From the NCBI GenBank assembly GCA_014773175.1, contig VXCM01002879.1, positions 1 through 64,000 of the forward strand: a stretch of DNA of 64,000 bases, given 5' to 3'. The notes under the pieces are model-generated. The model saw only the letters and a list, made by a program, of their open reading frames with translations, made no database searches and was not told the DNA's origin. A program made the position numbers and the translations under genes. Positions 9,401 to 59,700 of the stretch are shown piece after piece (positions within the stretch are counted from its first letter, which is position 1; every line of letters starts with the position of its first letter). The stretch is from Lucifuga dentata (taxonomy: Eukaryota > Chordata > Actinopteri > Ophidiiformes > Bythitidae).

Positions 9401-12400
9401 AAAACTGGAACTGAAAAAATGTTTTTCCTACCTTCCAGACCTCCACTGGTTTCAGTTCATTCTGGTACGCTATTAAAATCAACTTGTTGGTACTTGAAAC
9501 ATTCTTGGGATAGGTAATCCATCATCGCCAACAAGACGTGTATTCAGGTTTGTTTTAAGTTACTTAATTTTAGTATTTAAGTACAATAAAAAGCGCAGAG
9601 TGAATGCATGTCTCCACCGGGGAATATAGTCCCAAAAGAAGACCTGAGTTTATTGAAAAATTTAAATGACTGTGACTTCATAAGGCTGNAATATAGTCCC
9701 AAAAGAAGACCTGAGTTTATTGAAAAATTTAAATGACTGTGACTTCATAAGGCTGCGTAAGTATTAGCGGGGGAAACATCGATTTTTAAGGTGGGTGTAT
9801 CGCTTGAATATTTGATTTTGAAAGATTAAGAAAGTTTGCAAAATATCAGAAAAGCTGAAATACAGTTTTATCCTTTGGGAAATGGTTGTCAGTAACATAT
9901 CATGTACGAAAATTACATATGTTAGGCTCAAACATGCAAAATGGGTGGTATGGTCCTTTAAGCTGGTGTTGCTAAAATCCATGCAGGAAAATAAGAACGT
10001 TCTTATACTTACCTGATTCTACAAGAGATAATGATTAACAGTTTGTTTATGTATATCTCATATTGAACTTCAACCATTTCAAATAGCTTTAACTGAATTC
10101 AAATAATTTTGTTGCTAGTCATGTTGCGTTTGGGAAACATACATGAAGTCGGCAGGTCGGCGGTCTGGAATGGGTGCAAGTGTTGCTGGGGGAGGCGGTG
10201 GTGGCGGGACACAGTTCAGGTAGAAGCAGCGGAAAACCTGTAAGTTGACTGAGACATCGATCATGGAGCGGTCAACACTGTTACGACGCCGTCGGCTGCT
10301 TTGCTTGCCAGACACTGGAGGAGCAAGACAACATCAAATGGATGAACACACTGGAATTGCTGTTCTTAATGATCTTGGAGGACAAATTATGACATCCATC
10401 ATGAATTCAATGAATAAAGTTGAATAAAGTGCAAGTGGAGGTCAAATTATTCTTGTTTTTTTTTTTTCCATGGATAAAAAAAAAGNTTGAATAAAGTGCA
10501 AGTGGAGGTCAAATTATTCTTGTTTTTTTTTTTTCCATGGATAAAAAAAAAGCGGAATCTTTGTACAGATGAAGCTCTTACTCCAATGTAAACATTTAGA
10601 ATGATATTAAAGTGTGTGGGTGTCTAACCGATGTAGTAGAGGTCGTTGGAGCTGTCATCAAAGTACCAGTCTCCGTTCTGGTTGCTGCTGTAGTTGAGTG
10701 GTGTTGTTGACTCATTCCTCTTGTCCACTATATAGAAACTGTTTGGCTTCTGGGTGAAGTTGTGGTTGATGATCACATATTCATCTTGCTGTATGAGAGG
10801 AAAAACACATGTAAAAACATCAGTGTTACTCCTACAAATAGTGTAGTATTTGGCCCAGACTCAGCTTTAAATGTGAAACAGATCTTGGATTTACCTTGAA
10901 GCCGTAAAACTTTGCGGAATAAGAAATATTTGTGATATGGTCCGCATTTTCAAAGAAAACGTTGTATGTTTCATAAGAGGGCAGCAAGGCCATCCAGCCG
11001 AGCTTATGGGTCATTCTCTTCTCCATAAAGGGAACCACACTAGTGCCTGTAATATTAAAAAAAAAAAAAGCCCAGTTTTCCCCAATGACAACACAAACAA
11101 AACAGAAATATATACAGTAGGGTCCAAAATTCTGAGACCACATTGAAAATCTGTGATGTTTTCCATGTAAATCTGGAAATAATTGGAAAGTCTGACATCA
11201 CAAGAAGCTCTTTGGAACATTGTCAGATCATGCTGGGATAACTTGGGTCATCAGGTTTTGCACAAACTTGTGAAGTCCATGCCAGCTCGAGTGCATACTG
11301 TCATTAAAGCAAAAAAGGGGCATACCACATATTAAGATATTCTGAAAATCATGTATATTTTTCAAAGATTCAACTTCTCACTCTAATAGCTAAGATGATA
11401 TTATAATTTGTAATGAAAAATCTTGTAATAAATTCAAAATGAATGCAAAATAGAAGCATTTTTATAGTGGTCTCAGATTTTGGACCCCACCATACGTTTA
11501 TACAGGAATATATATTTTTACGTGTTTTCAAGAATGGGCAATCAGTTGAGTACATTGAATTTAAAGCAAATTCAGTACAATTAGTACAATTTTCAAGGAA
11601 ACATTCCTCATTCCTAAAAAAATACAACCTTAACACATAATCACTTGTCAGATTATTAGGTACATGAGCAATTTAAGGCAATCCAATAAAATAGCCCCAC
11701 AGTAAATCCTATCATAGTGTAGGAGCTGAATCAACAGTGGTTCTGTTGTATTGGATTACATTATATTGAAAAGCACCTTTTATATTTTATCCCAATTTCA
11801 TGCATTTGAGGGACAAAATATTACAAATGAGTCTCACTATAATGCAATCTGATACAACACCAACCACAAAAAAAATACTGTAAAGCTCAATCAACAGCTC
11901 TTCAATCAACAAAAACTGAACATTAAAAGCTTCACAAAGATATGATTTATTGTAGGATCATTGCATTGATTGGCACAGGATTGTACGGGTGTTCCTGATA
12001 AACTGGAGTTTATCAGGAGGTTTTTGAATAATTCTGTGTCTTTTTTAATACCATATGAGTTGGTCATGATGGCATTCTTGGCACTCAGAGAGGAAGGCGA
12101 GGGGTTGTTAAATGACAGACGGTGGAATTCAATAGTTTCGTCGCACACAGCACCAGGGAAACCCACGCTCCACTCAGCATTCTGGGAACAGTGTGCAGGA
12201 TTCAACAAGTTGCTCATTGGCACCACTTTACTGTTGGTGATTCCTGCAGATGAGGAAATATGGATGACAGAGTTTAGACTGACAGAGTTTAGAAAGCCAC
12301 ATGTGCAACTGATTGGACTATTGTTCATTAGAGAGTTTAACATGGAGTTTATTTGAATAACAGAATTAGTATTAGTATTATTAACAGTATTAGTACTTTT

Positions 12401-14206
12401 ACTTAAGTAAAGGGTTGGAGTACTTCTGCTGCTGTTGGTTTTTATACCCCATTCTGTCAATACAGACTGGCACAGATCAATTAAAAAGTGGTTGTAATTA
12501 ATCTTTGTAAAACTAATATGGTGAACTCTAGGATAAATGATAAAATGCAGACTAGATATTAATATGACTATAAAAATATAAATAAAACCATTAAGATGAT
12601 GTATAATAAATTGTAGCTCCTAATCACAAATGATTAAATAATAATCAGCAGGAGTATTATAAAAGAAATCTGAGCAGCAGATCACAAATATGACTGATTA
12701 CCTGTGAGGCTACCATCAGTGTCCACCAGCTGGATCTCGTGCTCCCATCTGAAGGCGGCCTTATTGGAGGTGCTGTGGTACTCGATGCCACTAAACCTGG
12801 CAGCCCAGCCTCCACAGAAATTTGCACATGTCCCTTGGATTGAGGCTACCCCAATAGCTGCACAGGAACTGCGATCAAAGTTGATAAACTTGGTGTTGAG
12901 GACACTCAAGCCATCGTCAAGCGGCGCAATGACACCTCGGCCCGTGCAGTATTCGTTTCCCAGGCCGAGNCTCAAGCCATCGTCAAGCGGCGCAATGACA
13001 CCTCGGCCCGTGCAGTATTCGTTTCCCAGGCCGAGCTCATCTAAGTGGCCAACGATGACGCTGTTAGATATCATTGCCCCTCCTTCTTCTCCGAAGCCAC
13101 TCACTGTCGACTGTATGATGCGCTTGGCTTCTACACCTGCTTTCTCGTTGTTGACCATGACAAATCCAATGAACTGCACAGCACCCACGTTAACCCACTC
13201 TGCACCTTTCTCACAGTTCCAGGCAGTGAGGTTTCGGAAGCCAGCTGGCTCAGGGGTTCTGGAGAGACAGCCTCCATCTTTCATGGGGAAAAAATCTTGG
13301 AAGATCCAGATGCCAAACCAACCCTGGGAGTGCACAGTATTGTTGGAAAACTCCCCCAGGGGAACTTTCTTCTGGCAGATGTTTCTGTCAAATGACGCAC
13401 CATCTGGGTGCTCATGCATCCGGTACCAGAAGCCAAAGTGGGTGCCCCCTGCGGCAGCATTGTTACGAATGATGTTGTTGGGGTTGGTAACCCAGTAAGC
13501 GGCTGGGGTGACATCATCGTTCAGAAGGCTGGTGCTTTGTTTGACAAAGATAGCCAGGTTATACTGCAGGATATTCCCTGTCTCAATGCCATCTTCGATA
13601 AAGAAGGCACCACCCATGATGTCATAGATGACGTTGCGCTCCACCAGCAGCCTGTGGGTGTTGTGGATGGTCACAGCCCTGTTGAAGGTCCGATGGATCC
13701 CGCATCCTCTCACGTAAGACTTAAAGTTGATGTCTCCCATCAGATGCCAGTGGATTGGATAACGTCCAAGTCTAAAGGCCTGTCCTGCATGGAAAATCTG
13801 CAGGATAAAAGCATTCGTAATGACTTTAGAATTTCTTTATGTGCATGATTAAATAAGGAAACACAGAAGGGCAGAAAGTAGAACAAATGGAAGAAACAGA
13901 TATTAAAGGTTGAGTAATATGACTCATTTCCATGGGCAATAATTACAAGCAGCAGTTTTTATGCTTTGTACCTCAACATATTCTATTCTGCCGATTGCAA
14001 GGTTCTCATTTGGCCTGGGTGCATGGAACATGATGCAGCCTCCAAACTCATCGCTACCCATCTCCTCACCAAATCTTCCCTGGAAACAAGTCTGAGTGGA
14101 AAATTGACCTGCAGCACACAGAACAATGTTAAGGACTTACATGGTAAACTGCACTAAATATTTTTTTGTTAATTTCACAACTAAACTCCTGCATTTGTCT
14201 CTGACT

Positions 14207-14256
<50 letters not shown>

Positions 14257-17200
14257 TTACAAGAAATGAATTATGCTATATATAAAATCAGAAACTTCTA
14301 CCTGTGTCAAAACCATTGGGGCAGCCATCAATCTTGTCATTCCACTCTATGTTTTGGGAGCCTCGGACCACGATGTTCCTGGTGAGGAGACCCACCTCGG
14401 CTCGGCCCTCAAATGGTGTCCCATCAGGCAACGTGACGCTCACCCCAAGGTGAGGGTACTTGAGTGGCTCGGTCAGTGTTAGCATCATGCCGTCAGCCGA
14501 CACAGAGGCGATCGTCTTCACCTCGTTTTCTCTCTGACTATGCCTAGAAAAGTTAAATAACAGTTTAGGATGAGATAATGTGGGAGATTTCAGCCTGTGC
14601 CTTCCTGAATTTGTCCCCCTCTCTGCTTTACCAGGGTTAAACGATTGAGTAAACACGCAAAAGATGATGGACCTGCTCAGAGCTTTGAAATAGAACAGGT
14701 AATATTAATTGTTTGAAGTCAGCCACTTTTAGATTGTTAGGATTCAGAAAAATTTACAAATCAATATAGCAATATTCCAGACTATATTCTAGAGGGAATG
14801 TCAACTTCACACACTTAAAGGTGCTTTTAACTGAAATGAGTGTGAGCATGTACATGTATGTGTATGTATCTTTATAACAGTATTAAGTTAAATATAACAT
14901 CATGAATTCCCAACTTTACTGTACCTATGTCCAGTGGAGGCAATGACGATTTGGTCTCCGGTCTTCCATGTCACCGCCTGCATCAGGTTCAGCGTGACCG
15001 AGCCACTGGCCGCTGTCTGGGCCAAGTGTGTCCAGGTGATAGGAACGGGAATACCTGGAGAAACAGGTTCACAACAATGAGTGACACCTGGGGGGGGGCA
15101 ACTGAGATGTCAACAATAATAACATCCCTGCAGGATCTGAACTGAAGTGTGATCATCGGGTGACGTAGTGATAGTCAGGGGTTTTTGGAATAAATGGGTC
15201 ACACCTATTTTAGTGAGAGATATTTGGCTCCACAGGATATGAGTTACATAATACAATTAAGAAATAAAATATCTTTTTAAGAGTCAGAAGTCAGAGGAAA
15301 CAATTCATTTGGGAGCAATACTTTTCAAAGTTACAAATAAAGGCAAAGGCAAATTTATTTATATAGCACAACAAACAAAATTCATTAAAACAACATTTAA
15401 AAGACAATACAAACAAAATAAAGCAACATTTAAAATACATTAAGAACAAAAANTAAAACAACATTTAAAAGACAATACAAACAAAATAAAGCAACATTTA
15501 AAATACATTAAGAACAAAAATAAAAGCAACATTTAAAAACCAAGAGTGAAATAAGATTAAGTAAAAAATAAAAAAAAGAAGATAAGATAAGATAAAAGCA
15601 AATAAAATAATCTATTGTGTGGTTACAGTGCAAAATTAATGAAATTGGCCCCAGATTGAATTACAGTGGAAAGCCTTAATTAAAAGCAGTGCTAAAAAGA
15701 AAAGTTTTGAGCCTGGTTTTGAAAGTGGTTACAGTTGGAGCANATTAAAAGCAGTGCTAAAAAGAAAAGTTTTGAGCCTGGTTTTGAAAGTGGTTACAGT
15801 TGGAGCAGATAAATAAATAAAGACAGTGTACATCTCACGTGTGTATCAATCTACGTGTATGTAAGTGTGTGTGTATGTGTGTGTGTGTCCATACCATGTA
15901 GGTCCAGCACTCCCTCTCTTACAGCCAGCGTTTTGGTTCCATAGACAGGAAGTTCTGTGGACCGGACATGTCCATGAAGGGTGATGATGGCTTTGTGCTG
16001 AAACGGCGCCCCTTCCTGGCCGATCTGGAGTCGTCCTCCATCAGCGATCAGGATGTTTTCTGCCTGCAGCTCGATGTCCATCTCATCAAACACCAATGTC
16101 CCTCCTGGGCACAAAGGAACAGTACATCAGAGTAAATATTGCTTGTATAAGAAGAGTTTTATGTTTTGTCTGTGTTCCATATTATTGTCAATCATTGACA
16201 AGATACACCTGAACTTACTATTGCACTGGTTCAAAGTGTGTTACAGCAATAATTTGTTTCATCATTTTCGTCTCTGAAATTTACCCTAATGAGAAAATTG
16301 GCATATATATGTATATATAATCTTATATGTGATCCTACATGCATTTTTTCTATGATTAAAACAAACTTCTGCACTTTCAGGAACTCATGACCGGAAATTA
16401 TGAATACAGCTCTGTTAGCAACGTATGTAACATCATGTGCAAATTCACAACATGGACCATCAGCCTCAGAAGTTGTGCATTTTGTTTTCTGTATTTTTGT
16501 CATTTTAACACAATGGTTTATTTTACTTTAGTTGACAAAAAAAGCAAGAGCTATATCTCAGCTTGTTTATCAAAGTTCACAGGGACTTGTAGAATATTCA
16601 AACAATCAGAGTATGATAGGAAATTTGTCAAGCAACCATTCCTAAAACTAACTTAACTGGATTGTTAATACACACAAAAATCCACTTATTGAGTATTGGT
16701 ATCAAATATATTAATGCAAATTTCTTGTATTCTGAATGTAGAAAACATTTCTCTGTTAAAAAAAAAAAACTTCTCTGCCTACAAACTTTTTAATGAAGAA
16801 AAAAAACACATAACTTTGTTGTTATGACGTAATTATTTTTCCGAAAAATTTCATGGAGGAAAAAACACATAACTTTGTCGTTATGACGTAATTCTTTTTC
16901 CGAAAAATTCCCCTGAATCCTTAGGAGCAAAGTTCTCTCTAATAGGTTCTGGCCTTGAGAAAGTCTTGTTATACCTTTAATGAGGAGCATTTTGAGCACA
17001 GGGGTGTTGGTGTCCAGCAGGATGGTCTGGCCTTCTGTGATAACAGCAAACGAGCCTTTCTCCGGCGGAGGCAACCCACCCCACGTGAATCTGGATGACC
17101 ACACGTCAATGTAGAAGAAATCAGCATTTTCCTGAAGGAAGAGGAACATTGAAAGATACAAGATCAGTTTAATTATTTTAGTTTCTAGGTTGACCTTTGA

Positions 17201-20200
17201 CAAATAGATTAATTACACTTATAAATGATTATATTCTGAAAAATTCCTCCAAATGTCTTTGTACCATCCTGGCGATGCCTTGGTTCCCGACACTGACTCT
17301 AACTTTGGTTTCCTGAGATTTTGACTGAGAGTTTGTCACACAGATAATGTGTGTGTTGTTGGTGGACTGGATGTCGCACACAGACCCTGCAATGGTCACG
17401 TTGACTTCGTTGATGTTGGTGCTGTAAGGTGGAAGAATGAGTGAACACAATGAAATACAAGTCAAGTGAAAACAAGAAAGAAAAGTTTGTTGAAAATTAG
17501 GTTAAAAATCAGCATAAGTAATTAAGTTAATTATATATATATCATTATATACTGTATATCATTATATATATCATCATATATAGAGGATCTCAGACTGGCA
17601 AAGTCAGTGTTTTCTTTTTTTCCTGTGGCCTTTCCCTGTTATAACTGTTCTTATTATGGTTACTCTTTATTTCTTAAACTATTTATTACTGTTTTATTGT
17701 TTGGTTTTTATCTACTGTATTAACTATCAACTGTTCTGTTAAGTACCTTGTAACTTTGGTGTTCTATAAATATTATTATTATTATTATTATAACGATAAT
17801 GGGAGTTTTACTTTTGGATTTTTGATGTAATTAGGGGTTGAGGGTGAAAGCAACTCATGTCGCTTTCACTCTCAACCAATAATGAATGGAATTAATTACA
17901 GGCCACACACATAATGATGTCAGAGGAGAGAGCATTTGTGTTGTGTAAGTCAAACATTTAATTCTTAACCCGTGCCCCATAACCTGGGTGTGCCTCTCCA
18001 TTGTGATATTTATACACCATATTGTCATATTCTTATAACACACCTGAAACCAGAGCCAGTGATTGTGAGTCTGGTGCCTCCAGCAGTGCCTCCTCTGCGT
18101 GGAGAAACGTCGGTGATCACAGGAGTCAGCAGGGATTTGTAGGTGAAGCCACTGGATATGTTGACGGCATACAGCTGGTTAATGACAGCAACCTCACAGC
18201 TCACCTCTGGCTGAGTGCCTGAGGGTTGGTAGCATGCCCACACAACCACAGACAAACAAACAGACAGACTGTCACGTGCAACAATGAAATTTCGTGCGTA
18301 GAGATAATAATCAAGCTAAGATGTCTCGTCAGCTGTGACTTGTTATTGTCTTATCTGACATGCCTGCCATTTTTGGCTGCGTTTTAAGTCTGAGAACATT
18401 CCTCACACACAAAATCAATCTCCATGACAAACAACATTTCAACTAAGACAGAACTGGTTGGACTTAAATATAATGAGCCGGAATCATTGCGTTTGTAGGA
18501 GGGTGAGAAAGCATTTGTTTAAATAGTGAGCAGCTTCTCCTAAGAAGCAATAAAACCAATAAAGCTGATAAAATTATTGAAATGTCATCTGTTTGTGNCC
18601 CCCCCCCCGTATAAAGTGTGTCTCTTATCTTTGAAGCAGCTCATGAACTCACTGACCTTCATCGGCTTTGACCTGAGACACCTTTACAATGCTTCGTGAA
18701 TGGGACACCACATTAATTAACGTAAGAGAAACTTCATGAATGAGCTTCAAATATCACGGCACTTATTTAGTGTGGCGCTGTGTAGTTAAGCATGATTTTT
18801 TTTATGGATTCCACCCAATTGTCTGTTAAATTGAATTAAATTTTAATATTCTAAATCAAATGCAGACATACTGTTGTGGAAGGGTGACTCGCAGTAAAGA
18901 CGCGACGATGTGGACATTTCTCTGTCAACTTCACATTCTTCTCCGCAAATCAGCACATTGGAGTTTTGGGTATCAAACCCAGAACCCTGAATAGTCAGCA
19001 GAGCACCACCAGCAAAACTGCCTAAATAAACAAAAAAAGACACATGGAAAACTTATTACTGTGGGGTTTCTGAGTCATTACTGCAGCAAAGAATCCAAGG
19101 AACTCTACGATAAAAGTAAGAATACTGTGAGTAAAATATTCTGAAAATCAGAGAATGAAAAATTACAGATGTGTCTTGCTAACCTGGTGCTTTGATTTCT
19201 GTATACCTTTCCTCATTTAATAAAGTCTGAAGATAAAATGCTATACTGCATTATAACAATTGAAAAGTCTTACTTATATAAGACATTTACTCTTAGTTTT
19301 ACACCCCTGAGATTAACTACTAAGTCAAAACTAGTTTCGAATAACTGCATTTGTTATAATTGATATTACTTTAGTATTTTGGTTGGTATAAAAAAGTACT
19401 GCAGTACAAAACCCTACAAAAGACATTTTCCAAATCATATTTCCATTTAGCACTGACCTTCTGTACTTACCCTCGTTTGGCTGGACACCGCTGAGAACCA
19501 GGTCATAAGTGAAAGTAACATCTGACTGGGCATGACCTTTGACCCAGTGATGGAGCATGACTGAGTACGTCCCCCCTGGGTTTTCTCCTGCAGTACACTG
19601 AACCTGCGTGTCAGTGACGGCTGAAACATTGCAGGGCACGTGGTTTATCTTGGCAGAGATGTGTTGCGGGTCGGTGCCAAATCCTGATCCTGTCAGTGTG
19701 ATGACTGAGCCGCTTGGGCCTGTGGGACATAAACAGAGAAGAAGGAAGAGGGGGGCAAGGTAATGAGAGAAAGGTTAAACAGGACAGGATAAATGTAACA
19801 TGAGCATGATACATTATCTCAAAGACGTTGTGTAATTTCTTGCTTTGTTCTGGGAACCGAATGTTCTTTTTTTTTTGTCTGTCAGATTGTCTGAAATAGG
19901 GTTGTTGTCAGGTCAAACTGTAATAACTCAGAAGATATTGTCTGTACTTTTTCAATATAAGATGAACCTCTATGTTTATTAAAGATTCTAGTGCCTGATG
20001 TATGTGAAGACTGATGATTACCATTGGTGGGGCTGATGGAGCTGATGACAGGAGTGTGGGCTGCAGAGTATGTGAAGTTGAGAGGAGGATACAGCACGGA
20101 GAAGACCTGGACGCTCACGGAGACCAGCCCCTCGTCGTGAGGTGGCATCAGGCAGCGAACTTGACCTGGGGTGACCTCCTGAATCTTACAGGGTTCGTCC

Positions 20201-38200: not shown

Positions 38201-41200
38201 CAAGACAACAGAGACGAATCCTGACATTTGAAAATTTGGAACCAGAAAATGTTGGACATTTTGCTTTAACTCATACAGTAAATGACAATAAAACAATTAA
38301 TCAGCCACTGAAATTGTTGTGGTTAATTTTTTGTCAGTAAATTAATAGAATTATTAATTAATTGTTTCAGTACTATTTCAATCAAAACTTATTTTCTTTC
38401 AGTTTTATTGGTGAGATAATAATCATCTGCCTTATTTTGCCTTCTTCCACAGTGCTAGACAGGATATTATCACACAGTTTTGTACTCATTTCTAAGAAGA
38501 GTTCATTTTCACACGTTCATGGACAAACTGCGGGTATAACATCAGTAGACCTATGATATTTTATTTTTTATATTTAATTTTTTACCTCAGAAATCTAGTG
38601 TTGAGACCATTCGTGCTCTTGGCAGTGTTGCTTCCGTACACGTCCGTGAAGATCTGTCCTCGCACTGTCACGATGGTGCCTGTACATTTGAAGTGGGTTT
38701 AATGAAAAGGATCAAGGTGAAGCCAGTACATCCCCTACAATGTGTGTATGGTTTATGGGTAAAGACTCTACCTGGGGGACCACTGGCTGGATTCAGGCTG
38801 TATATAATAGGTGTGTGATACCATACAGACTGAGGAAAGTTAAGAATGAGAAAACACTATTAGTAACTTTTAAGGCAAGCCTCCAAACTCAGGATCCTGC
38901 AGTGTTAAAGTGATTGATTTGCTCGTGGAGACTTGTTTTACTTACCCACAGACTGCAGTGGTACGACTTATATACACCATTGCATATATTGCTCTCAGGA
39001 ATAGGAACACCATCCACACGGACACGGACCACATACTGGCCATTTGGCATGGGTCTACAATGGACAGAGGAAATAATGACACACTTTAGATCCTGGACAC
39101 TGATTTGGTAATTAGTGATTGCATGAAATTAATGATTTTTAAAGGTAGTGGAAAATTTATCATGTTGGCTGACTGTAATTAGTCTGGATCTCCTCATTTT
39201 AGAGCTCTTTCAAGTATATGTGCTCCCAATATGGACATTAAAGGACCATATCAATGTTTTTGCATGTTTAAGCCTAATACATACAACCTGCCTACATATT
39301 ACGTTACTGACAATTTCCAAAACATAAAACCGTATCTTAGTTTTCTTGTTATTTTTCCAAATCCCCCAATCTTTCAGAATCAAATGTTCAGTTGCTACAC
39401 AACCTTCAAATTCAGTGTTTCACCATGCTAATGCTTTAGCACGTTCACAGAAGGCATAGTCGTTTTAATTTCTTGGTAAAACCTGTTTTCTCCTGGGACT
39501 GTACTCCCTGGTGGAGACATACATTGTCTTCCATGCAGCTCCATGTTGGATTAGTTAAATAAAGCTATTTCAACAAAAACCTTAATAGACGTAATGTTTG
39601 TCATGTTGAATTACTTATCTCAAGTGCAGCTCAAGTCTCTACAAGTTGATTTTAATAGTGGACTAGAATTAACAGAAACCAGTGGCAGTGTGGAAGGTAA
39701 GACATTTTTTTTTTGTTTTAAATTCACCTATTGTTTTGGGAATTTTTTTGTCAGCAAAGCAGTACTAGGGTTAGGGTTAGTCTAAGTGGGTTGTATTTAT
39801 TAGGATCAAACATGCTAAATCAGCTGGATTGTCCTTTAAGTTGAATATAACTTTTCAAATCTGTGTTATTTGGCCTACAAATGCTACCTGGTATAACACA
39901 AGATTTGGTTGCCATGTGTTGAGTCTCTCTCCACATCACAGGGGACTGACAGGGTATCTGACACAAAGGTCACATGGTTACCGAAATCGTCATCTTTAGG
40001 AAACAGCTGGAACTGATTCTCCTGGCCAAAACCTAAAAAAACAAACAAAAAAAAAAAACCAAAAACAAAAACAAACAAACAAACAAACAAACAAAAAAAA
40101 CAAAATAGTAATTTAAGTTTTCATTTTAAATTTTCTAGTTAAATTTAGTGAGGCCAACAAGCAAATATCATCAGTCCCATTATATCAAATCTTAAAATGA
40201 AGTGTTCACGGCTGGGCGTGGTGATAGGTTAAAACATCAATTAACATCAGATGTGGGTTTTTTTTGTGCACTAAATGTTAAACAGCAAGATTAGGATTGA
40301 CAAAATTTGCCAAATTTTAGATTTTAATAGACTTTAATTACACATATGGACAAGCAACCTTTGCAACTACCACATCACATTCTGTTCATCTAATGGTCCT
40401 GAAATGACCTTTTCAGCATTGTTAACTGATGTGTAATAATAAAAACACAGGTTCCAAAAAAATATGCAGAATGCTATATGAATACATAAAATAAAATAAA
40501 TAAGATAAAATAAGATAAATAACATACTGTGCTAAACAAGGCCAGAATAGAACACATAAATGCAAATTCAAGATTATAAACAGCAAAAGAGTATTTAGGG
40601 GATATTTTAAAGTTTGGATGTTTTTTTGTCAGCCTGATTGAGAGAGGCAGACTGTTCCAGAGTTTGGGTGTCTTCACTGAAAAAGCTGAGGCTTCATTTG
40701 AAAAAATAAAATTTTGATGACACATTTGGAACCTCTATTTTTTCATCTTTTTTGGTTAGTAATCTGAAAGAGATGATGTATAAATTATCTAAATAAGTGA
40801 ATAAATAAATGAAAATTAAAAATTCTATCCAGTATTTAAGTCTACAGTAACACCCTGTTGCTACTGCCAGTACTATGCAATATGTAATTACAGTTATTTG
40901 CTGTATTTGTATAAAACAGTAGCAAACTGTAAATTTTACCAGCAGTAAGAACATGTTAATTTTATAGTAACATAATGGCAACTGTGCTGCCTGTTTTTTT
41001 TTTTCTTTCTATTTTTTTTTTTTTTTTTNTTTTTTTTTTTTTTTTTACTGTTTTTTGTTTTACAGGACAATTCTAAAAGTGCAACTCCTGCAATAAAGTT
41101 GAGGTTGGAGTCAAATATAATGCCATTTTATGAGTATGTTAAGCCTCACAACCAACAACCAACAACCAAAGTTGTACAACCACACACTTGTGTTAAAAGG

Positions 41201-42688: not shown

Positions 42689-42689
<1 letters not shown>

Positions 42690-44746: not shown

Positions 44747-44873
44747 ACCCACTCACAATACCAGCAATATTTAGAGATTTAAAAAAAAAAACAGCTGACA
44801 TTCCAAAAANACCCACTCACAATACCAGCAATATTTAGAGATTTAAAAAAAAAAACAGCTGACATTCCAAAAA
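44747..44873. other. Exact 63-bp direct duplication around N (44810)
   Basis: 44747-44809 and 44811-44873 are identical. Intergenic, downstream of ENY2. Confidence 0.85.
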
Positions 44874-45479: not shown

Positions 45480-45492
45480 ATGATTTTATTTC
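45480..45492 (-). terminator. Possible ENY2 polyadenylation signal
   Basis: On the minus strand an AATAAA hexamer (plus-strand tttatt) lies about 170 bases past the ENY2 stop codon. It is the first clear hexamer in the 3' flank. The region is AT-rich and a hexamer by chance is possible. Confidence 0.4.
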
Positions 45493-45655
45493 TTCCAAAT
45501 TTGTTGCATAACAAACTAAAATCAATATAAAAACACACAATAAAAAATAAAAATAGCACTTCAGCATTGCTCACAATGAGAACAAACATCAGTATTGGAT
45601 TTAATTGTGGCTCTATAGTAAGTAAAAAAAACTTCCTAGATTGGAATCATCTCAT

Positions 45656-47291
45656 TCACAATGTTGCGTGTTGAGCTAGAAACGCTCTGATTCTCTGTAG
45701 GAGCTCTTTCTTTACGCTGTCTGGTACGAGTGCTGCAAAGGAGGGACAAAAAGGAAAGTGTTAATAACTATAATCACAAACATTCCAAATATATAAAATA
45801 TAAACAGGTTGCTGATTAGAAAAGTTTATTAGTTATTATTATACAACAGTTAATTTTGACCAAGTATTTTGATTGGACAAGAAGCATTCCAGGAGTGCTG
45901 ATATTAGAGTATAACAGCACTTGGACTTTTAACTAAATCTATCACACACGCTACCAAAGAGACTGCCAACAGACGCTTATTTCACTGGAAACATACAGAT
46001 ATGATTATACAAAGTAGCTGGCCTGTGGTAACGTGTACACAAAGTAGCCAGCNTGGAAACATACAGATATGATTATACAAAGTAGCTGGCCTGTGGTAAC
46101 GTGTACACAAAGTAGCCAGCAAGCTAGTGTGCTGTTTATGTTTTACTTAGCAACAGTCTGGTTGCGGAACTATTTGTGTTGGCGGAGCCAAATAAATGAT
46201 TAAAGAAACAAACAAATCATAATATGTTGTCACTTATTGCTTTTAACTCGCTTGTAGAAGTGTTGTATAAAAGCAATATCACACTCGAGGTCGTGCTGTT
46301 GTACTGAATAACAGCATGGCTGCGATTATCTTCAGCACTCGGCCTGCGGCCTGGTGCCTACGACCAAATCACAGCCATGTTGATATTCAGTACAACAGCA
46401 CTCCCTCTCGTGTGATATTGTTTAAATATCTTATGGCATATGTAATAAGCCAGTGTCTGCCCATAATATCGGTGCTGCAGATGTATCAGTCAGGCTGTGA
46501 TTGTAACTGAGGAAGAATGCAATTTCAGTTCTTGTAACTGATTGGTTCAGTGACATTATGTAGTTTTTAATGATTCTGACATAAATTGGAATATAATGCT
46601 TTGCTATGATTTATGTAGAACAAATCTTGTCCAAATGTGGAGTCATTTGCAGAAAGCATTTGAGAAATCTGGCTATACTTTATTTTAAACTTCAGAGTTC
46701 CAACAGAATCTTGGACTCTGCAAAAAATCCAGCAACTCTGTCACGTTTGACTTGCTTCTTCAACTAGTGAGTTTGCTGTCTTAAGCAGACGTTTACATCT
46801 TGTCTAATATTTTGACATTTTTCTAAGCCCTCTTGTGCTGCTGTGCTGACATATGATCCACTGTACTGTACCTCTGCCTTTTGGTGTGACTTCTGTGACC
46901 AGATCCTCCACTGTGACATGCTCCAGGCCTTTTTCTCTGATCACATCTAAACAAAAGTGTGACAAGTGTTCATGGGACACATCCATCATTATTCCCCATC
47001 CTAAAACACACATACAGACACAGACACACAAACACACACACTACCTTTGCAGTGTGCCTTGAGCTGATCCTTCCACCCACACTCCACCAGCTTTGCCCTG
47101 AGCAATTCTTTCAACCTGCGGCCACAAACAGACATTTAGATGAGCACTGTGTAAGTGTCTGAAAACCCCCGGTGTCTTTAAACCATTTATGACTGCAATC
47201 GCTGCAGATAAAAGCTTTCTTACCGCTCCCGTTCCCCCATTTCTATCAGCTTCTGATTTATTGCAGCCCTCATTTGAGAATCCTTGTTCAT
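45656..47291 (-). CDS. ENY2: ENY2, transcription and mRNA export factor (complete)
   Basis: Small helical protein, the yeast Sus1 homologue, shared by the SAGA deubiquitinase module and the TREX-2 mRNA-export complex; it acts in the nucleus and at nuclear pores. Coding exons: 47224-47291, 47045-47115, 46872-46946, 45656-45732, giving 291 nt or 96 residues plus stop. Motifs match human almost residue for residue: [56 protein letters not shown], and the C-terminus [15 protein letters not shown]. All junctions keep phase with GT-AG borders. The start is the MNKD methionine; the five-residue MVVSK extension of one human isoform is not visible. A CAG acceptor lies just upstream of the ATG, so the first exon is non-coding and probably ends at 47399 (GTAACG donor). 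Confidence 0.95.
45986..46120. other. Exact 67-bp direct duplication around N (46053)
   Basis: 45986-46052 and 46054-46120 are identical. In the last ENY2 intron. Confidence 0.85.
46272..46424. mobile_element. Fold-back element between ENY2 exons 4 and 5
   Basis: The two halves are near-perfect inverted repeats. The left arm starts near CAATATCACACTCGAGG and runs to AACAGCATGGCTG. The right arm mirrors it from CAGCCATGTTGA to CTCTCGTGTGATATTG. The centre is rich in CGGCCTGCGGCC. It resembles a fish fold-back MITE. Identification rests on structure only. Confidence 0.6.
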
Positions 47292-47399
47292 GATCTGTCT
47301 GAACAATACAAACACGAACTGTAACGCTTTAATGCAGCTTTTTAGAGATTAATACACAATCGATTAGTTTTATTTTGCTAGATAGAGACGTTACCTTTG

Positions 47400-47779: not shown

Positions 47780-50700
47780 ATGGCTGCGTCTAATTATTCT
47801 TTAAAGGTCAACAGAGAGCTGCTGGACCCCAACTTTGAAAGTTACAGATTGTCTCTGGACGCCATTCCAACTTACAATGTAGAGTTGGATGCAGGTGAGA
47901 GAAAATAGACAGAACTATTTTAGCTAAATGGCTAGTCTGCTAGCACATGGCTGGAAGATGCAATATTCACTTCTGTTACTACAGTTAGCGAAATTAAGTG
48001 AAGTTAAGTGACATGAATCTTCAGAGGTTAACTTGTCGTTTGTGATGTTTTCGTATGAGCCAGCTCCATTCACCTTTAACTCAGTGGTTCTCAAAGTGAG
48101 GGTCATGATCCTCCAGTTATCCCTGAGGGAATTTCAGGGTGACATTCTAATTTCCTGTAGATTAACTAGATCTGGAACGACACAATTTAATGAGGGACTA
48201 GTGGTATTTATTTACTGTATGTACAGCTGCTTTACTCAAACAAAGTTAGTATGTAAATGAGTATGTTGAGATTCTTAAACGACAAACCAGGAAGATCATA
48301 ACTTTGGCACTTAAGCAAAAAAAAAAAAAAAAAAAAAAACCAGATTAAAAAAATATAAAATGTTATGAATAGTCCCCTGAGTTTTTTCCCCTGTTAATTT
48401 CATTTTTTCCCCTCTGAACTGCAGCTGTGGAGGAGGTTAAACTGAAGGATAATCAATACACCCTGGATCATATGCGTGCTTTTGGCATGTACAATTACCT
48501 GCAGTTAGATCCCTGGTATGAAGAAAGTGTTTTTTTTGTGGACTGCACAGGACGAATTCTCAGTCTCACCGTCACTCTGGTAAGATTATGAATCTGCAAA
48601 TACCCCTGTTTTTTTTTTTTNTAGCTGTTGAGGTGTTCCTTCACTGATATCTCTGTGCATTTATTGTACTTGCAAATAAAATTAGTTGATTCTGATGCTG
48701 ATGTGACAGTGGAAATGTTGATGGTCTTTAATGCCACTAACACACCAGTAGATGGCAATCAAATATTTAGCAAATACTCGAGAAATTGCAACTGCAGCCC
48801 AAAGTGCATTTCTCACTGAAGATGCTAGTGTTAATGTGAAATGTAACGTAAGGGGGATTTTGTGACATTATTTGAGTGACTTGTCTTTCTTGCTTAAGAT
48901 GCTGAATTGGACAGACAGTCAGATGGAGAGTGAGAGCTTGAATATTAAAAAAACAAAACACAGTTATTTATTTCAGTTTTTGTTCAACATATGATTCAGT
49001 GCAATCTCACACTCAAAAGTTTATATCAGCCTTAGTGTGTCTTGTTAATCACAGGAGTAATTACAGAACTATAAACTACTTTCCAGTTTTGTTATCCAAT
49101 ACCAAGATATTAAGATGAGGAGCAAAATTGGTAGAATGACCTTTTTATGAGAGATTTCTTTTATATCTGAGACACAGCATTGATTAGGGATAATTCTTCC
49201 ATATTGCTGTTTTTATAACTGGCCTGAATAATGATCATCAGATAATCATTATCATCAGATAACAATAATCTTAAGAGACAGTATTTGTGGTTTTCAGTGG
49301 CATCATTAAATGAGTCTTTATGGAAATGGGTTGCTCAAATTCTAATTACAATGATCAGATCACAATTATCGTCCTTGGCAACTCTTTTGTGTACATTTGT
49401 AGGTAAGCGGCGCATTGTACGTGGCAGCGTGCCCTCCGTTCAGGGCATTAATGACGTGAGTGCTAGAGAAAATGATCTGAAAGGCATCATACATTAGACT
49501 CTGCTATAATACACAGTGTCACGCTCCATGGCAACAACAGGACAGATGCTGCCCAGTTCTTTTCAAATACTGTTACTTCGTGCAACAAGTAATTGATGCT
49601 TATGTGGTGGCATATCTCTCTGATGCTGCTAAGTCACACGAGTCATGCATCACATGAAACAGTTACATGGGTGCCCACGTGAGGGTTGGTAACTTTCATG
49701 TACGTGGCTTGTTCTCTGTAATTCAGTCTATTGACAAAAGTATATTCCTGTGTTTTCGGAAATGAGAACACTATGCAAATGATGTTTTTACAGTGTGTTT
49801 TCAGAGTCAACGTTAATGACCACATTTTCTTATGGGATTAGAGTGGCTACTTCAGTATGAAAGCAATAACCTGTTCCTTCGTCTGTACTTCAAAGACCTC
49901 TCATTAAGAGTCTCCATTTGAGTCTTTGTGAGACGTGATAGGACTGCATTAAGGGTGTAACTTGGTTGAACATAGACACAGCAAGATGATTAGATATGTC
50001 AGCCATTTTACATTATTTATCATTATCAGTTTCAGTTTCATTATCAGAATCCACGTTGTGCCATACCCATGTTTTTATACATACACACACACCACACCAC
50101 TACATTTAACTTTCCTCTTTGCAGGTACACGTGATTCAAATGTGGCTCGGATCCATCTGCAATATTTTTTTTTGTGTGTTTTCTGACTGGCAGCTCTGTT
50201 GTGTTGTGTATCCAGGACACCGCCCTGGGGAAGCCGAGAGAGGTCNTGACTGGCAGCTCTGTTGTGTTGTGTATCCAGGACACCGCCCTGGGGAAGCCGA
50301 GAGAGGTCTACCGCATCAGCACCGACTGCATGCAGTGTGAGGATCGTCTTTGCACCTCCCTCAGCCTCACCTCAGCGACCTGGGCAGCCCTCTCTGATGG
50401 CACCGGCAGACTCTTCCTCCTCCACACTGGAAAGAGGGGAGAGGGCTCTCATATGAAGTGGGAGGTAAGAATAGCGGCTGGGTGACCGGCTTCCATTAAG
50501 TGGAATTTCTCGCCGCTACACAGATACATTTTCAGGCGGTTGTGTGTGTTTCCTTCAAATTACAAATCTTTCTTTGAGTCATAGAGTCTATGAGTTGCTC
50601 TCGAGCAGTCATAGTGAAGTTAAAAGGGCACAAATGAATCGGTGACCTCTTATTGACCTCTACTGGTGAATACCTGGAAATGCAACAACACTGATTGAAC

Positions 50701-53700
50701 ACAGGCCTCGAACGCAGCTCCCATCTTTCCTCTCTCTCCCTGAATACATTTTGCTCCAAACATTTTGCAAACAGCCACCACAATTTCACAGTAGAGGCAA
50801 CTAAATAGAAAGAAGAGATATTTGTATAGTAAATTTAAAGTATCACCAATGTAAAACTGCAATGATAAGGCTGCTATTTTGGGCTCAAAACTGAGGCTGA
50901 TTATCCTGTGATATCTCAACAACTTGTGAGTTTGTAGAAATAACTCAGTCAAAACCCCAGAGAGGTGTATGTGTATGATATTTTATGCTCAAGGGCAGCA
51001 TTCTTAAATATTGATACTGGCAGTGTTTAATTCTGGCTGTAACAAAAGCATACCATACCATAGTATTACCCATTCTGCCAAACACTTTGGCACATAACCA
51101 GCCATTATTTCTTTTCTAAGAGTCATATGTGGATGGCTGGATGGTACTCAGTAGTTAGCATATGAAATTTGGTCTAAAAAACCCTGCTATAAGTTTCTAA
51201 TAACAGATTCATCAAAATTTACAGTGGTGTATACCTAGAAGGTAGAAAGATTAAATGGTACCTAATTTAATAAAGCAGAGTTTAATTCTGATTAGGTAAT
51301 GAAGGTGATCCTAGGAAACACCTTTTTCCAATATTTACAGATTAAAAAGCTTTACATATTCTCAGATGAACATTTATTTGAGGCCTCACTGTGCTCGATC
51401 GAACATCCACCTCTAAAATATCTGTATGATGAGGTGAATTTTCTATTTTTTATGACATATTATTGGCATTTGCTAAACAAAATATTCTATTTGTCTGCAT
51501 GAAACGATGGAACACAGAGCAGTGGGGAGAAACATGCTTTATGGCCCAAATCCAAACTATTAGCACCAGATGCAAATTGTTATAATATCAATGGATGCTA
51601 AGGATTTACAATGCACATGTTAAATTATACAATTTTAATCCCAATATTCCTGATAAGCCTATAAATGTATTGAAAAAATATATCCTCTTTTCCATTATAT
51701 GGGGCAGTATCTGAAGCCTAAGATATCCTGGAAAGAGGTTTTTGAACTAATTTCCATCAGAAGTCTTGTTCTTGTCCAAGCAAACTTCTGTAGAAAGTTA
51801 TCAAAATAAATATTTTTCAGCTGTTATTCAAATTTGAGCTTTGGAACCAGTTCCAGCGTTTGAAAAGTAGAGCCAGTCTGCGGAAATTGGCTTGCTGTAG
51901 TGAGAGATGAACTCTTTAATCAGACGAGTCTTTGTTCACTTTTTTTCTGTTGACAGGCATGAGATTGGGATAAGCTGCAAATGAGAGTTCACCCTCTTAC
52001 CCCAAACACGCTTGATGCAAATCCGAATGCAAAGTTCAAGACTAGAATTCCTAATGAATATTTGGGCTTTTGAGTCAGTAATGTTCGACTTTCTCATTTT
52101 ACCAGCTTTAAATGTCAGTAGTCGAGGATTCAGACAAGCCATGTTTCACCTTTCATTTTGTATTGTGTGTAGGTGTTTTAAAGAAACCTATAATAAACTG
52201 ACTCATAAACCACATATATTTATGCAATCACTTTGTCTTTTTCAACCAGACAACTGTAGGCACTGGTTTAGAAATAGCCTTTTGAATTATCATTTTATTT
52301 ATCATTTTATTTTATATAAAACTTTATTTTATCATTTCATGTCTCTTGTTTAAAGCACAGTATAGCTTCATACTGTTTGGCTACGTCAGCTCATTAGAGG
52401 CTCATATAGTTAATGTTGAGACATTAACTTAATAATCTTCTGTCAGCTTGCATGTGGCTCTTAAATTTTTTAACCACCACAAGAAATGTAATGACGTCTT
52501 CCCAAATCCTTGTAAGTGGCACAATTTACTATTACATTTAAAAGTTGATGCTCTTGGTAAGAGTTATTTCCAAGTGTAGTGGCTTCTTTGTGGCCACCAG
52601 GTTCCTCACAGGAAAAAAGGTTTCCAACATCTTACATCTTTGTGTTGCAAATAATATCCTTTATTTTCGTAAATCTCGTGACGATCAAACATAAAGGCTT
52701 ACACACTAATATCTCAGTTCAAAAGAAAAAAGACTTGATCACTTGATCTGTCCATGCTGAATTACATACTGCGTTACGTGCTGCGTGTGTTGAAAAACTG
52801 TTTGCGTACCTGCCGGAACACCTGGTGAGGGACCCCCTTCTATTCTTATAACCTCCAATCTATGTGCAGTGACTGGTATGCATACCAGGGGATAGTTATG
52901 TAATTTAGGTGATTACTGACAGAGTAAACAAGCATGCATGCAGCATAAATAATCAATTAGATAAAGTGAAATACAAATAATAATCATCATCATAGTCACA
53001 TCAAAATGATCAATCTAATCTTTAGGCTCCAGCACCAAGAATCGCCACAAATGTAAAAGTAGCCAATAATAAGGATTGTGAGTTCAGAGGCAAAGCTCTA
53101 AATCTAATTCTGTGGCTACAGATTGATCATGTAAGACAGAGTTCATGGAAATAATTGTCTAAATGAAAATACATAAGATTAAAGTGAGTTCGTCATTGTT
53201 AAATGTTTGATAGACCTGCAGCTTTATGTAAAGACATTTGAGAGACAGTTTGATCATGAGACCAACCTCTGTCCTAAAGGCCACAGGTTTGATCCCTACC
53301 GGGTTCCTTTACCAAATACTGGACTACAGCTTATCTCAAATAAATGTAATAGTCTAAAATAGTCTGGAATTCTAGATGATTTTTAAAGGTGATAACCCAT
53401 GAAATGCTTATTCTTTTACATTTTGATAATGTCTTTTCTTCTACATATCATTGCCGTCATGTTTTATTTATTTTTTTTAATGCACTACGCTTCTCACAGT
53501 CCATCCATCCATCCAGTATCCATATCTACTTATCCTATTCAGGATCGAGCGGGACTGGAGCCTATCTCAGCAGTCCATCCAGTATGATGTTAAGTTACTT
53601 GAATATTCTATTGATGAAGTGCTGGTGTAGCTGCTGCTGTATCTCAATCTGATCAGCAGTGATCCCCTTTCCAAACCAATTACATAAGAACAGAATTAAT

Positions 53701-56700
53701 GTCAAGTTGGCTGGTGATAAACGAATGAATCTCACATTCATAAGATGAATTGTAACATTACCGTTTGCCACGGCGGCTAACAGACCCTGCTCACCATCAC
53801 TTGTATCCTGCTGTAATGATTAAACTTAAATTTGTTGCTTGTGTGCCCACAGCCGCTGTTCAGTGAGGACACGGGGGAGCCTTTCATCATCCTCCACAGC
53901 GTCTCACATGTCCAGGCTGGAGTCCACACGATGGAGATTCTGCTGCTCCGCATCCAGAAAGACCCACAGGAAACCAAAGGAAGCGGATACTCTGTGTCTC
54001 TTGAGTGGATCACAGTTGCAAACACTGCAGGACATGGTGAGCAATGCACTGGCCAAGTGTTGTTTTGGTAATTGAGCGTTTAGTAAAATAAGACAGGCGT
54101 GTAACTAATAATTGCATCTGAATTAGGATTTAAATTTGGGCCTATGACTTTGGCTTCATGTGCATTTTTAGGATCCCAGCATTCATGCTCAGTAGACTGC
54201 AGAAGTCCGTGTTAATTAAAGGATGCGAGGAAGTCAGTCATACTCCGTAGTTAATTGAGCTTAATTATTATGGCTCAGATGAGATTAGTGCATTCTGTAC
54301 CAAATATTGGCAAGAATCATTTTGATTAAAGTTTTTGGCACTTGCAGGGAAAGAGAGACACCCTGACTAATGATGATTCATAAACTGCAGAGACAGAATT
54401 TAAAAAAAAAAAATGATAACAGCCTTTTGAGAGCCCCTTCCTCATTTTGTTGGACTTTAAGATGCAGTCCTTTGATATCTGCTCACTGCAGTTTAATCTT
54501 TTGTTGTTGGTTTAGTGTCTCAGTATTCAGACTAAGTCTGCATATTCTTTATGCTAATCAGTTATTCTGGGATTCAGTTTTAATTAAGTTTAACATGGCT
54601 CTGTTATCAGTCAACAGAGCTCGAATATGACTGCTGAGGGAATCCTCAGCAGTCATATTCAAATGTCAAATGTCAAATTAAATAAGTCAATAAGTCAAAT
54701 TAAATAAGTCAAATGTCAAATTAAATTAGCCATAATTACTTTAATGCAAGGTAGCACTTGTATTAATATTCTACATATGCTCACATAAAATATTACCATG
54801 AACAAATCAACCATAGATCAAAACTAACATCAATGCTTTAAGCTTTGATCTTATCAAGAGGTTTTCTGTTAGCAGTGACACTGAACTGACAAGTGCCTCT
54901 CTGGATTTATGCAGAGAGAAAAACGACTTAAATGCCTGAGAATGTGTCAATAACCTTTTAAAGGCCAATGAATACGATCTGCATATACCTTATGTTACTG
55001 ACAACCATTGTCCAAAATATAAAACTTTCATTTAGTTTTCCTGTTATTTTGCCAGATCCTCTAATCTTTCAAAGTCAAATGTTCAGGCGATACACCCATC
55101 TTAAAATTCAATGTTTTGCCTGCTAACATGTATGTCTAAATGTAGAAGGGATGGTTGTTTTTAATTTCTCAGTAAAATGAACTGAAACCAACTGAAATCT
55201 GGACAGTAGGAAAAATAATTCCAATATTTACTGCTCCACTAGCATGTTTTGGAAATGGTTGTCAGTAATGTGGGTATGCAGGTATTATACGTATATTGGG
55301 CTCTAACATGCAAAACCATTAGTGTAGTCCTTTAAAATCACTTCAGAGTCTGGTTTGACATGTCTGTAGTGTCTGCTGAGAGATTAACTTTTACCGTTGA
55401 CACCAGCAGATGCCAGGAGCAAAAATATTAGCTAATATTAAATATGTGTGTTTTGTATCAAAACTACAGAATATTCTACAATTTATAATTTATAATTGTA
55501 ACTATATTTATTTTATCATTTCTACTTCTTAAGTGTTTTCTATGTGGGTTTCTTTATAAGTGGGGGAAGCTTAATTTTGGGACAAATTCAAATTTAGGTT
55601 AGATTTCTCTAGTAATAAGCTTTTTTTGATGTAAAATATGGTGTCCATCATTTTTACATTTCTGCTCAAATTAGCTTACTTGTGTGAATTTTCAGTAAAT
55701 ATTTGACATCACAGCTTATGTTAGTTATAAATCATAATTCAAGAGCTGGTTTCTGAAAATGGAAAATGGAAAGTTACAGATTACTTGATACCTTTAACAC
55801 TGTGTCCTTTTGGTTCCGCTCAGATCAGGACAAGAAGTATGAGATGAAGAAGAGGAGGGTCCTGAGGGGGAAGTCAGTCCCACACTATGCAGCGGTGGAG
55901 CCACAGGGTAAAGGACTGATGGTGGCGTCCGAGAAACCGTTTGTCTTCACACATGTGGATGGTCTTCCTGTGGAGCAGCCTGACAAAGAGCCCATGGAGG
56001 TGGAGAAGACAGGTGGGTTTGTGTCTCAAGGGAAACTGCCAAAAAACGATCTTTGTGGTTAGGAATTTGCTTCCCAAAACAAATCTGCCATTTATTTAAG
56101 CTTTAAAACCAACATTCAGTCACCGCATCACCTCTACTCCATGTTTAAAAACCACTTAAACTAATAACTGGTAAAAATAACAGAGCTGGCTTTCCAAAAA
56201 TACTTTTTGGCTCATCATGGAGTTTCAGAGAATGCTTTACCCAACTGCTCGCATTGTGCTTCAACTTTTGGCTCTCTGTGTAAAAAAGAGCTTGTGCAGG
56301 CCAAATTTCTAAAAAGTCATGATGACATGTCTAAGGGGCGACACAGTTACTCACGCTTGAGAGACAACACTACGTTTTGATATCTTCTTGAGTTGATCAC
56401 ATTTATAGCAACAAAGCATGATCGTTTTCTGTTAGCATCACATTTTGAACATGACCAGAGTGAACAAACCTGTCTGTAAAACTGTTGAAACAGTGGAATA
56501 CAGTCATCATCTGACCTCTGAGCTACACTTCTGCCATCCTCCATGAATGATGTGATAACATCATATTTCTCATTTCTTGGCATTTTTCTGATGAGACCTT
56601 TTCAGCTAAGATTCATCACACAGATGCAGCTGCTTGTTTTCAATCAAGCAACATTCACTTATTCCACTCATTATCCCTAAGAGCTCCAAGTTGAAGGAAC

Positions 56701-59700
56701 ACACTGACAAGTGTTTCTATGGTTGTAGCCATAGAAACACCAGAAATTTTTCCAGTAAGAATGAGTTCTCTCAGATCTGATAGCCTGGTAATTTCATGTT
56801 ATCAACTTCTTTTTCCTTTCTGACTTGTCTGTAATAAATTGTACATGCCTGTCTGCAGCATAATCTTTCTTCTGATGTACTGAGAAGAAAGAGAAGATTG
56901 TAAATTCATACCGACAGGCTTTTATGAGGTTTGTGTCTATAAACTGCAAAATAACCAGGAAGCAACACCATGGCAATCACCTACCTACACCTTAGTGACC
57001 ATCCGGAAAACCATACCATTTAACAGCAAACCCTAGCAACTGCTCTGAACATCAAAGCAGCCACCTAGCAACCACCAAAAACACCATAGCAACACTCTAC
57101 CAATTTCTCAGAACACCATAGAAACTACCTAGCAAAATCTTAGCAACCACCATGAATACCAGAGAAAGTATGTAGAATCTATCTAGCAAAAACTCTGAAC
57201 ACTATAGAAACCATCTATCAAAGCAACCACCCAGCAAAATACTTGATATTTTTGTAGAAGTTATTAATGAATGGTAATACTACTATGGTACTCAGTAGTA
57301 AATAATGAGTACCTCCAAAGTTGGGGTGCAACTTGTTTTAAAACTCACAATTTTGTTGATCAACCAGGCAAAACCTTCAAATCAAATTCTTTAGATACAA
57401 TATGGGCCAGAAGTTTGAGGCCACCCCAGACTGAAAAAAAATCAATACGCTGTTTTACAATTTTTTGCACAGAAAATGACAAAAATATATAAAATAAATG
57501 TAACTAATTAGTTTTCAAGAAAAATTTGTCAACATGAGCATGTTATGTAGCCACTATGGCTTAAGAGATGATTTTTAATGAAGGCATGCCCAGTCTGTAT
57601 TACTGCTGGCACTCCAGTTTTGTTCCAACTCCCTTGCTCAAACTTTCTTGCTGATGTGTTTCATAATTTTATTCAATAAAAAGCCTGCTGTCTGCCTTCT
57701 CCCAGATCATTTTATGATTAACTTGCTACAGTCTGCTCATGCTAAATTTGGGGGTGGCCTCAAACTTTTGGCCTGCAGTTTATCCTTTTCTTTTGTTACT
57801 TTCACAATTGCACTCGCTTTTAAAGGATCATACCGGCCATTTTGCATGTTTGAGCCTAATATATTCAATTTTCATACACATAACATTANGGATCATACCG
57901 GCCATTTTGCATGTTTGAGCCTAATATATTCAATTTTCATACACATAACATTACTTACAATCCTTTCCCAAAGCATACTACTGGAATGATAAATTGAAAT
58001 TTTTTTTCCTGACTTCCAGACTGCCATCGGTTTCAGTTCATTCTGGTATGCTGTTAAAATCAACTTGTTGATACTTGAAATGTTCTTGGGATAGGTAATC
58101 CATCATCACAAACAAGACGTATATTCAGTTTTTTTCGAAGTTATGTAATTTTAGGGTTTAAGTCAATAAAAACCGTGGAGTGAATGTATGTTGCCACCAG
58201 GGAATATAGTCCCAAAAGAAGACCTGCGTTTATCGAAAAATTTAAACAACTGTGACTTCATAAGGCTTTGTAACTATTAGCAGGAGAAACATCGAGTTTT
58301 AAGGTGGGTGTATCGCTTGAATATTTGATTTTGAAAGATTAAGAGATTTTGCAAAATATCAGGAAAGCTGAAATATGGTTTTATCCTTTGGGAAATGGTT
58401 GTCAGTAACATAACATGTATGTAATTGAATATATTAGGCTCAAACGTGCAAAATGGCCCGTATGGTCCTTTAATTCACAACCCATAAACAAGCAGACAAC
58501 AGCTACCTTCATTTTCAAAAGACTGAGGATGATCCAGACTGGGTGAGGTAGGTTGTGTGTGTGTGTGTGTGTGTGTTGATGATAGAGGTAGCATGATGGC
58601 AGCTTTTTTGCCCAATCCTTTTATCAGTGCTCTGCATTTCTCTTTATGGAGAGGAGGAGTGGATTATATGTCAAAAGATTAGGTATCTTCAAAGATGAGC
58701 AGAAGTGATAGGAGAGCAAATGCCACCGAGACAAGAGAGAAGCAGGTGACGTGAGGCCGTGCTGATAGAGAGGAGATATATAGATATTCTCATATGTATA
58801 TATATTTATACATGACAATATGTAACTATGGGTCATAACTGTATGTCTTTTGGTATTATGTAATTTCACTTTTTCTGTGCTGGCCCTTGCAAGATATGTT
58901 TTATTCAGCAGCTTAGCCGCCAAAAGTAGTTTGAGCAAGAGAGCTAAACACTGAGGAAGAAGATTAGTAATAAAGAGAAAGGTTTGGCAGCTCATTCCTC
59001 TCCTCCTCATTAAACTCTTTGTTGATTCAGTTGACAACAAAAGGTGATAATGAACACATTGCAGTCCCGCATATCCCCGCCAGATATGGGCCATGTCTTT
59101 TGGTTTTGGAATATCATAATTGGACTATTTTCAGTACTTAGGCTTTGCCAGTAGCCGCTGAGTGTTTTATATGCGAGTCCTGGCACTGATGAGTGTTGGC
59201 GCAGAGTTGATACGAGTATGACCTCAGCGCAATCAGTCCCTTCTGTCTGTTCTTGTTCCAGCATTTCTTTATCTTGAAAGTTGTTTTTTGTTAAATTCTG
59301 TGTGTTATTTTGATATTGAGTTTAGAGCAACCCGCTTATCACTTATCAAGTTCCCCTCCCAACACATTTTAAGTTGTGAAAATGCTCTGCAGTGAATAAT
59401 GTTTTGATGGAACCCCGGATCTTTAGAGATGCATTTGGAGCTTTTTCCAGCTTCATGCATTTCTACAATTCTTCTTCTAAGGTTTTGATTGGGTGATGGT
59501 TCAAATGCTAGTAACCAGACCCTACATACCTTTTTAACATTCCACAGAACATCTCCACTCCCAACACACTCAATCTCATCAGTCACAAAATAGCTTTTAG
59601 AGTTATTAAACATTTATGTTTAAGACCAAAGAGGAGATTTATGGATGTAGTGAAAGAGGACATGAAGTTAGTTGGTGTGAGAGAAGAGGAGGCAGAGGAT

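Follow-up and report, generated by a model that had tools for sequence, protein, structure and literature searches.

In the window analysed here, the 64,000 nucleotides that make up bases 1-64000 of the 74,212-base contig VXCM01002879.1 of the blind cavefish Lucifuga dentata (assembly GCA_014773175.1; 597,888,862 bases in 8,189 contigs), nine exact direct duplications of 62-67 bp, each with a single N at its centre, are almost certainly an artefact of assembly, in which overlapping ends of short-read contigs were set side by side with one N between them. This reading is supported by the wide spread of N-centred duplicates of zero divergence in a sample of the same assembly, by a ceiling of 67 bp on their length, by the presence of a single copy in relatives as well as in most copies of the repeats involved, and by cut points tied to a stretch shared between two loci at two pairs of sites.

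The window contains 17 Ns, every one a single base, and nine of these stand between perfect direct repeats, with the N abutting both copies each time and no mismatch between copies in a total of 584 bp. The lengths of the duplicated units cover every value from 62 to 67, and the only gap between the two copies is a single N at all nine sites, as would be expected of false duplications. A scan of 63,600 positions for identical 40-149 bp units on the two sides of a single skipped base returned these nine sites only, and further exact direct repeats of at least 30 bp at offsets of 31-400 were absent from the window; the nine-site pattern is far beyond chance. Direct comparison of the copies confirmed the coordinates and the zero divergence given in a preliminary description of this DNA, and its remark that the units are unlike each other also holds, though those at 9689 and 57889 derive from different parts of the copies of one transposon-like family.

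Within this set, the unit at N 9689 (66 bp, 9623..9755) lies inside a copy of the transposon-like repeat, while that at N 57889 (64 bp, 57825..57953) lies at the terminus of such a copy. The units at N 15743 (64 bp, 15679..15807) and N 46053 (67 bp, 45986..46120) belong to dispersed repeats, and those at N 10486 (66 bp, 10420..10552) and N 44810 (63 bp, 44747..44873) are exact repeats about the N. Two sites touch coding sequence: N 12970 (65 bp, 12905..13035), inside a coding exon of PKHD1L1 (fibrocystin-L) on the minus strand, and N 50246 (62 bp, 50184..50308), where the unit takes in the last bases of an intron and the first of a NUDCD1 exon on the plus strand. The remaining site, N 15453 (67 bp, 15386..15520), is the least clear of the nine because a real tandem array, A-rich and with a period of about 33, lies underneath it. 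A gap flanked by direct repeats would also be left if each N concealed an unsequenced insert bordered by target-site duplications, but the gap measures one base at 9 of 9 sites, two of the units lie inside repeats and another lies in an exon whose listed relatives have no second copy. Duplications on insertion whose length varies between 59 and 67 bp are not known to us, which counts further against a hidden insert, and we regard this origin as vanishingly improbable.

The preliminary description had suggested scanning the whole assembly for the same unit-N-unit arrangement. Run on a sample of 199,774 unmasked bases from outside the window, the scan found it in many places, with exact units at 25 of 67 single Ns and a ceiling of 67 bp, and the explanation offered there, namely that contigs with ends overlapping by roughly the k-mer length were joined with one N, is supported and is correct in kind. 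The sample had two parts. One comprised the first 10 kb of 19 contigs taken at regular steps (L009-L027; 149,774 unmasked bases), where 24 of 56 single Ns had exact units, spread over 12 of the 19 contigs; the other comprised five hand-picked interior stretches (L029-L033; 50,000 bases), where this was so at 1 of 11. All gaps seen were of one base save seven longer runs, each at the start of a sampled stretch, which we took as masked. Following the repeats to their other copies brought in 11 more units, giving 45 altogether (window 9, sample 25, repeat-led 11), with lengths of 59 (1), 61 (3), 62 (5), 63 (3), 64 (7), 65 (4), 66 (6) and 67 bp (16). Thus 67 bp is both the mode and the ceiling, and 45 of 45 units lie at or below this fixed upper limit.

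Comparison with other proteins was possible for the two sites in genes. The window carries PKHD1L1 on the minus strand, with TIG, G8 and CEMIP beta-helix domains, and NUDCD1 on the plus strand, and the best matches in both protein searches were Lucifuga dentata proteins. The open frame with the PKHD1L1 exon that carries site 12970 (12682..13836, minus strand) matches Pfam CEMIP_beta-hel with an E value of 5.5e-56 as well as fibrocystin-L proteins, and the duplication puts 22 extra residues in frame into PKHD1L1. Among the 120 listed homologues of 763 found, the unit, scored as present when at least 11 of its 21 residues matched, is single in 120 of 120, and in all 120 the exon aligns better once one copy has been removed. 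The NUDCD1 exon whose start is duplicated lies at approximately 50279..50464 on the plus strand, its ends being judged by eye from the frame and from protein P0123; its start (present when at least 7 of 10 residues matched) likewise occurs once in every one of the 120 proteins listed out of 335. Both sets of 120 proteins include several isoforms or entries from the same species, plus the annotated proteins of L. dentata itself. In the annotated PKHD1L1 protein of L. dentata (P0003), the duplicated peptide is present once only, which suggests a false 66-base intron in the PKHD1L1 gene model of this species. The PKHD1L1 unit includes the motif AGGT, so that excision of a spurious GT-AG intron exactly 66 bases long would take out one copy.

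The repeat-borne sites allow a comparison within the genome, where we looked for the absence of a second copy at 9689 and 46053 and, weakly, at 57889, in addition to the two genic sites 12970 and 50246. The transposon-like repeat is about 650 bp long and terminates in inverted repeats of approximately 90 bp. Its copies in the window lie at 9307-9961, 57820-58473 and 463-1 (minus strand), with weaker ones near 1037-1616, 39238-39843 and 55000-55335, and part of it recurs at no fewer than 39 further places in the assembly. For 9689, the other window copies of the repeat fit the single-copy join better in 4 of 4 cases, and 7 of 8 genome copies examined are single (11 of 12 single when window copies are included), the eighth (on C2583) having a 67-bp unit-N-unit of its own at the same repeat position. 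The unit at 46053 is single in 6 of 7 other copies examined, and here too the seventh (on C1703) carries its own 67-bp unit-N-unit at the same repeat position. Against the other window copies, the single-copy score for 57889 is 10-14 higher in 4 of 5 and equal in the fifth, a weak comparison with the unit lying at the end of the repeat. In the repeat of 15743, two further copies (on C5391 and C296) have exact units, 62 and 67 bp long, on either side of one N, at shifted repeat positions.

These comparisons bear on the possibility that the sites are true recent tandem duplications of 62-67 bp with one uncalled base between the copies. Both copies do stand in the deposited sequence, site 15453 does sit in a real tandem array, and the duplications on C2583 and C1703 at the same repeat position, together with those on C5391 and C296 at shifted positions in the repeat of 15743, could look like a hotspot. 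Such an origin is nevertheless very improbable given zero divergence in 584 bp, an N that always falls exactly between the copies, the ceiling of 67 bp kept by every unit, and the single copy in every listed homologue of either gene and in most repeat copies examined; moreover, tandem pairs of at least 80% identity at offsets of 45-90 that lack an N number only one in the window (88%, at 16790).

Returning to the joining of overlapping contigs, we surmise that a short-read de Bruijn assembly with k of about 67 would have ended its contigs at stretches of at least k-1 bases shared with another place in the genome, such shared stretches being repeat copies and possibly also alleles or error paths. 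If S denotes the exact stretch shared by two loci, the left contig would cover about the first 67 bases of S and the right contig about the last 66, so that both would carry the same 133 - S bases. Paired reads would then have set the two contigs adjacent, with a gap estimate of zero or below; the overlap would have been left unmerged and the scaffolder would have inserted one N, with the result that one piece of the genome was written twice. The elements of this scheme that we infer are the assembler and its value of k, the reliance on paired reads, and the way in which the scaffolder dealt with negative gaps.

Two pairs of twin loci display cut points of this type. The 64-bp unit-N-unit at 15743 has an identical counterpart at C7481:150-278, as does that at 57889 at C213:137127-137255, and in both pairs the shared stretch consists of 3 bases to the left, the 64-bp unit and 2 bases to the right (S = 69); outside it, the two loci of a pair carry either copies of a repeat that have diverged or sequence without any relation. 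Of S, the left contig includes the first 67 bases and the right contig the last 66 at each of the four loci, and the overlap equals 133 - S at both pairs. A simulated de Bruijn graph (one random pair for each S from 62 to 80) gave no cut for S below k-1; otherwise, the left contig ended k-1 bases into S and the right one started at S-k+1. The observed cuts (67 and S-66) are within one base of those from such a graph with k of 67 or 68. Contig ends at fixed distances into S were seen at both ends of the stretch in the two twin pairs and at one end only at 46053 and C1703; no partner was found for 12970.

These data raise the possibility that the length of each duplication reads out S between repeat copies or alleles through an overlap of 133 - S, a proposal that we make tentatively and consider somewhat doubtful as a general rule. 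With this rule, the shortest S of 66 would give rise to the ceiling of 67, and the lengths would be spread, where a plain overlap of k-1 gives no spread at all. If it is true, a deposited short-read assembly would record its k and the spacing of differences between repeats or alleles, even without the reads. Among the other accounts of length that we considered, a constant overlap of exactly k-1 was rejected as it stands, since the window has units of each length between 62 and 67; the variation in length is accounted for in part, at the two pairs, by the shared-stretch rule. Random trimming of contig ends need not be invoked for those pairs, as the cuts at the two loci of each agree, and might act at other sites. 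Overshoot by a gap-filling program, as outlined in the excerpted text on GapFiller (PMC3446322), would leave the cut points tied to the shared stretch unexplained. A link between unit length and GC content was dropped (Spearman -0.35, p 0.36).

Several observations weigh against the assembly reading or against its details. First, the units are far rarer in the interior (1 in 50 kb) than at contig starts (24 in 150 kb) or in the window (9 in 64 kb). Second, units of 21-58 bp were not seen flanking any single N, and this lower limit near 59 is unaccounted for by the model. Third, the cuts at the twin loci point to different values, k = 68 on the left and k = 67 on the right, and no single k fits both. 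Fourth, the 133 - S rule fails at two sites, namely 46053, which shares 0 + 67 + 12 = 79 bases with C1994, and the 67-bp unit on C1703, which shares 0 + 67 + 7 = 74 bases with C1132; at these sites, the overlap is 67 where the rule would give 54 and 59, respectively. Fifth, the homologues can establish only that the duplication is not ancestral, and the two proteins of L. dentata itself derive from this same assembly; as these are nonetheless single-copy, the annotation must have skipped one copy. Finally, a search of the assembly found no second match elsewhere for the unit of site 12970, so that the break there is unexplained by an assembled repeat.

At 46053 and C1703, the left end keeps the 67-base rule and the right contig begins at the start of S. 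The copy on C1994 that matches site 46053 exactly is single, and its left flank departs from that of 46053 at the first base beyond the unit. At these two sites, the scaffold may include the contig of a collapsed repeat, in which case some of the sixteen 67-bp units would arise in that way. For 12970, the cut might instead stem from alleles, from errors or from an unassembled or masked copy. Alleles also enter a further explanation, that of a heterotype false duplication, in which contigs of two haplotypes are placed end to end and the two copies represent two alleles. A gap between the copies also marks duplications of that kind (in the excerpted text of PMC9516828), and two heterozygous sites around an identical stretch of 66-74 bp would cut the graph in the same way, which might account for unique sites such as 12970. 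Copies of alleles placed end to end would, however, be expected to show some mismatches and variable length, and we observed none in 584 bp along with a ceiling on length; we therefore find this origin extremely improbable. Alleles as the cause of a graph cut would be a variant of the contig-overlap explanation.

Parts of this picture have precedents. False duplications separated by an assembly gap were, reportedly, already noted by Kelley and Salzberg in 2010. Duplications of this kind are treated by Ko et al. 2022 (PMC9516828), and as far as the excerpted text goes, the likeness to our sites is considerable: adjacent copies, a gap between them, no real duplication behind them and errors in gene models. 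The examples there are at the scale of genes or exons and many are allelic, unlike the present ones, which are 59-67 bp long, identical and bounded by a k-mer length; read depth and pair discordance served as criteria for false duplications in that work. PMC5368935 reports gaps that remain between contigs which overlap in scaffolds built from short reads; its excerpted portion does not describe a unit-N-unit duplication. In the Meraculous paper (PMC3158087), short or repetitive overlaps between flanking contigs are said to occur at times and to result in negative gaps; Meraculous closed 938 of 985 estimated negative gaps, whereas many are left here. Judging from these excerpts, it is already known that contigs which overlap can be left with gaps between them and that false duplications occur at gaps. 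Our searches on the artefact turned up no literature on unit-N-unit duplications with a length rule of this type, and the excerpts of PMC9575681, PMC7757076 and PMC10854053 contained nothing on the duplication question; PDB and Rfam searches likewise returned nothing bearing on it. The rule that connects unit length to the shared stretch, drawn from two pairs, is the sole part without a match in the literature searched. The annotated draft genome of L. dentata is the subject of PMC7826195, and the name of the assembler was not found in the parts of its main text that were searched.

The duplications are very probably an ordinary artefact and no real genomic feature, and as such they matter to users of the assembly, not to biology. 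Extrapolation from the sampled densities (24 units per 149,774 contig-start bases; 1 per 50,000 interior bases) yields a crude figure of roughly 12,000 to 96,000 false duplications in 598 Mb. These would add false tandem repeats and false in-frame insertions, like that in PKHD1L1, and prompt gene finders to call spurious short introns, and they can mislead studies of genes and repeats that are based on this assembly. Counts of gene-breaking mutations in L. dentata, as given in the excerpted text of PMC7826195, are one use where artefacts in coding sequence matter.

The eight other Ns in the window have no comparable duplication, and local alignment of their flanks gave scores of 10-22; for comparison, the median score at 1,857 random positions was 10 and the highest 46. 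Seven of them (967, 18598, 28414, 41029, 48621, 59979 and 63586) lie in or beside runs of A/T or C or a TG repeat, and in the genome sample, 34 of the 67 single Ns had homopolymer-like flanks. The eighth, at 62455, lies in plain sequence less than 400 bases from the NUDCD1 exon that encodes the CS domain. The N-free tandem pair at 16790 extends to about 16920 with an offset of 59 and may be a real, older duplication.

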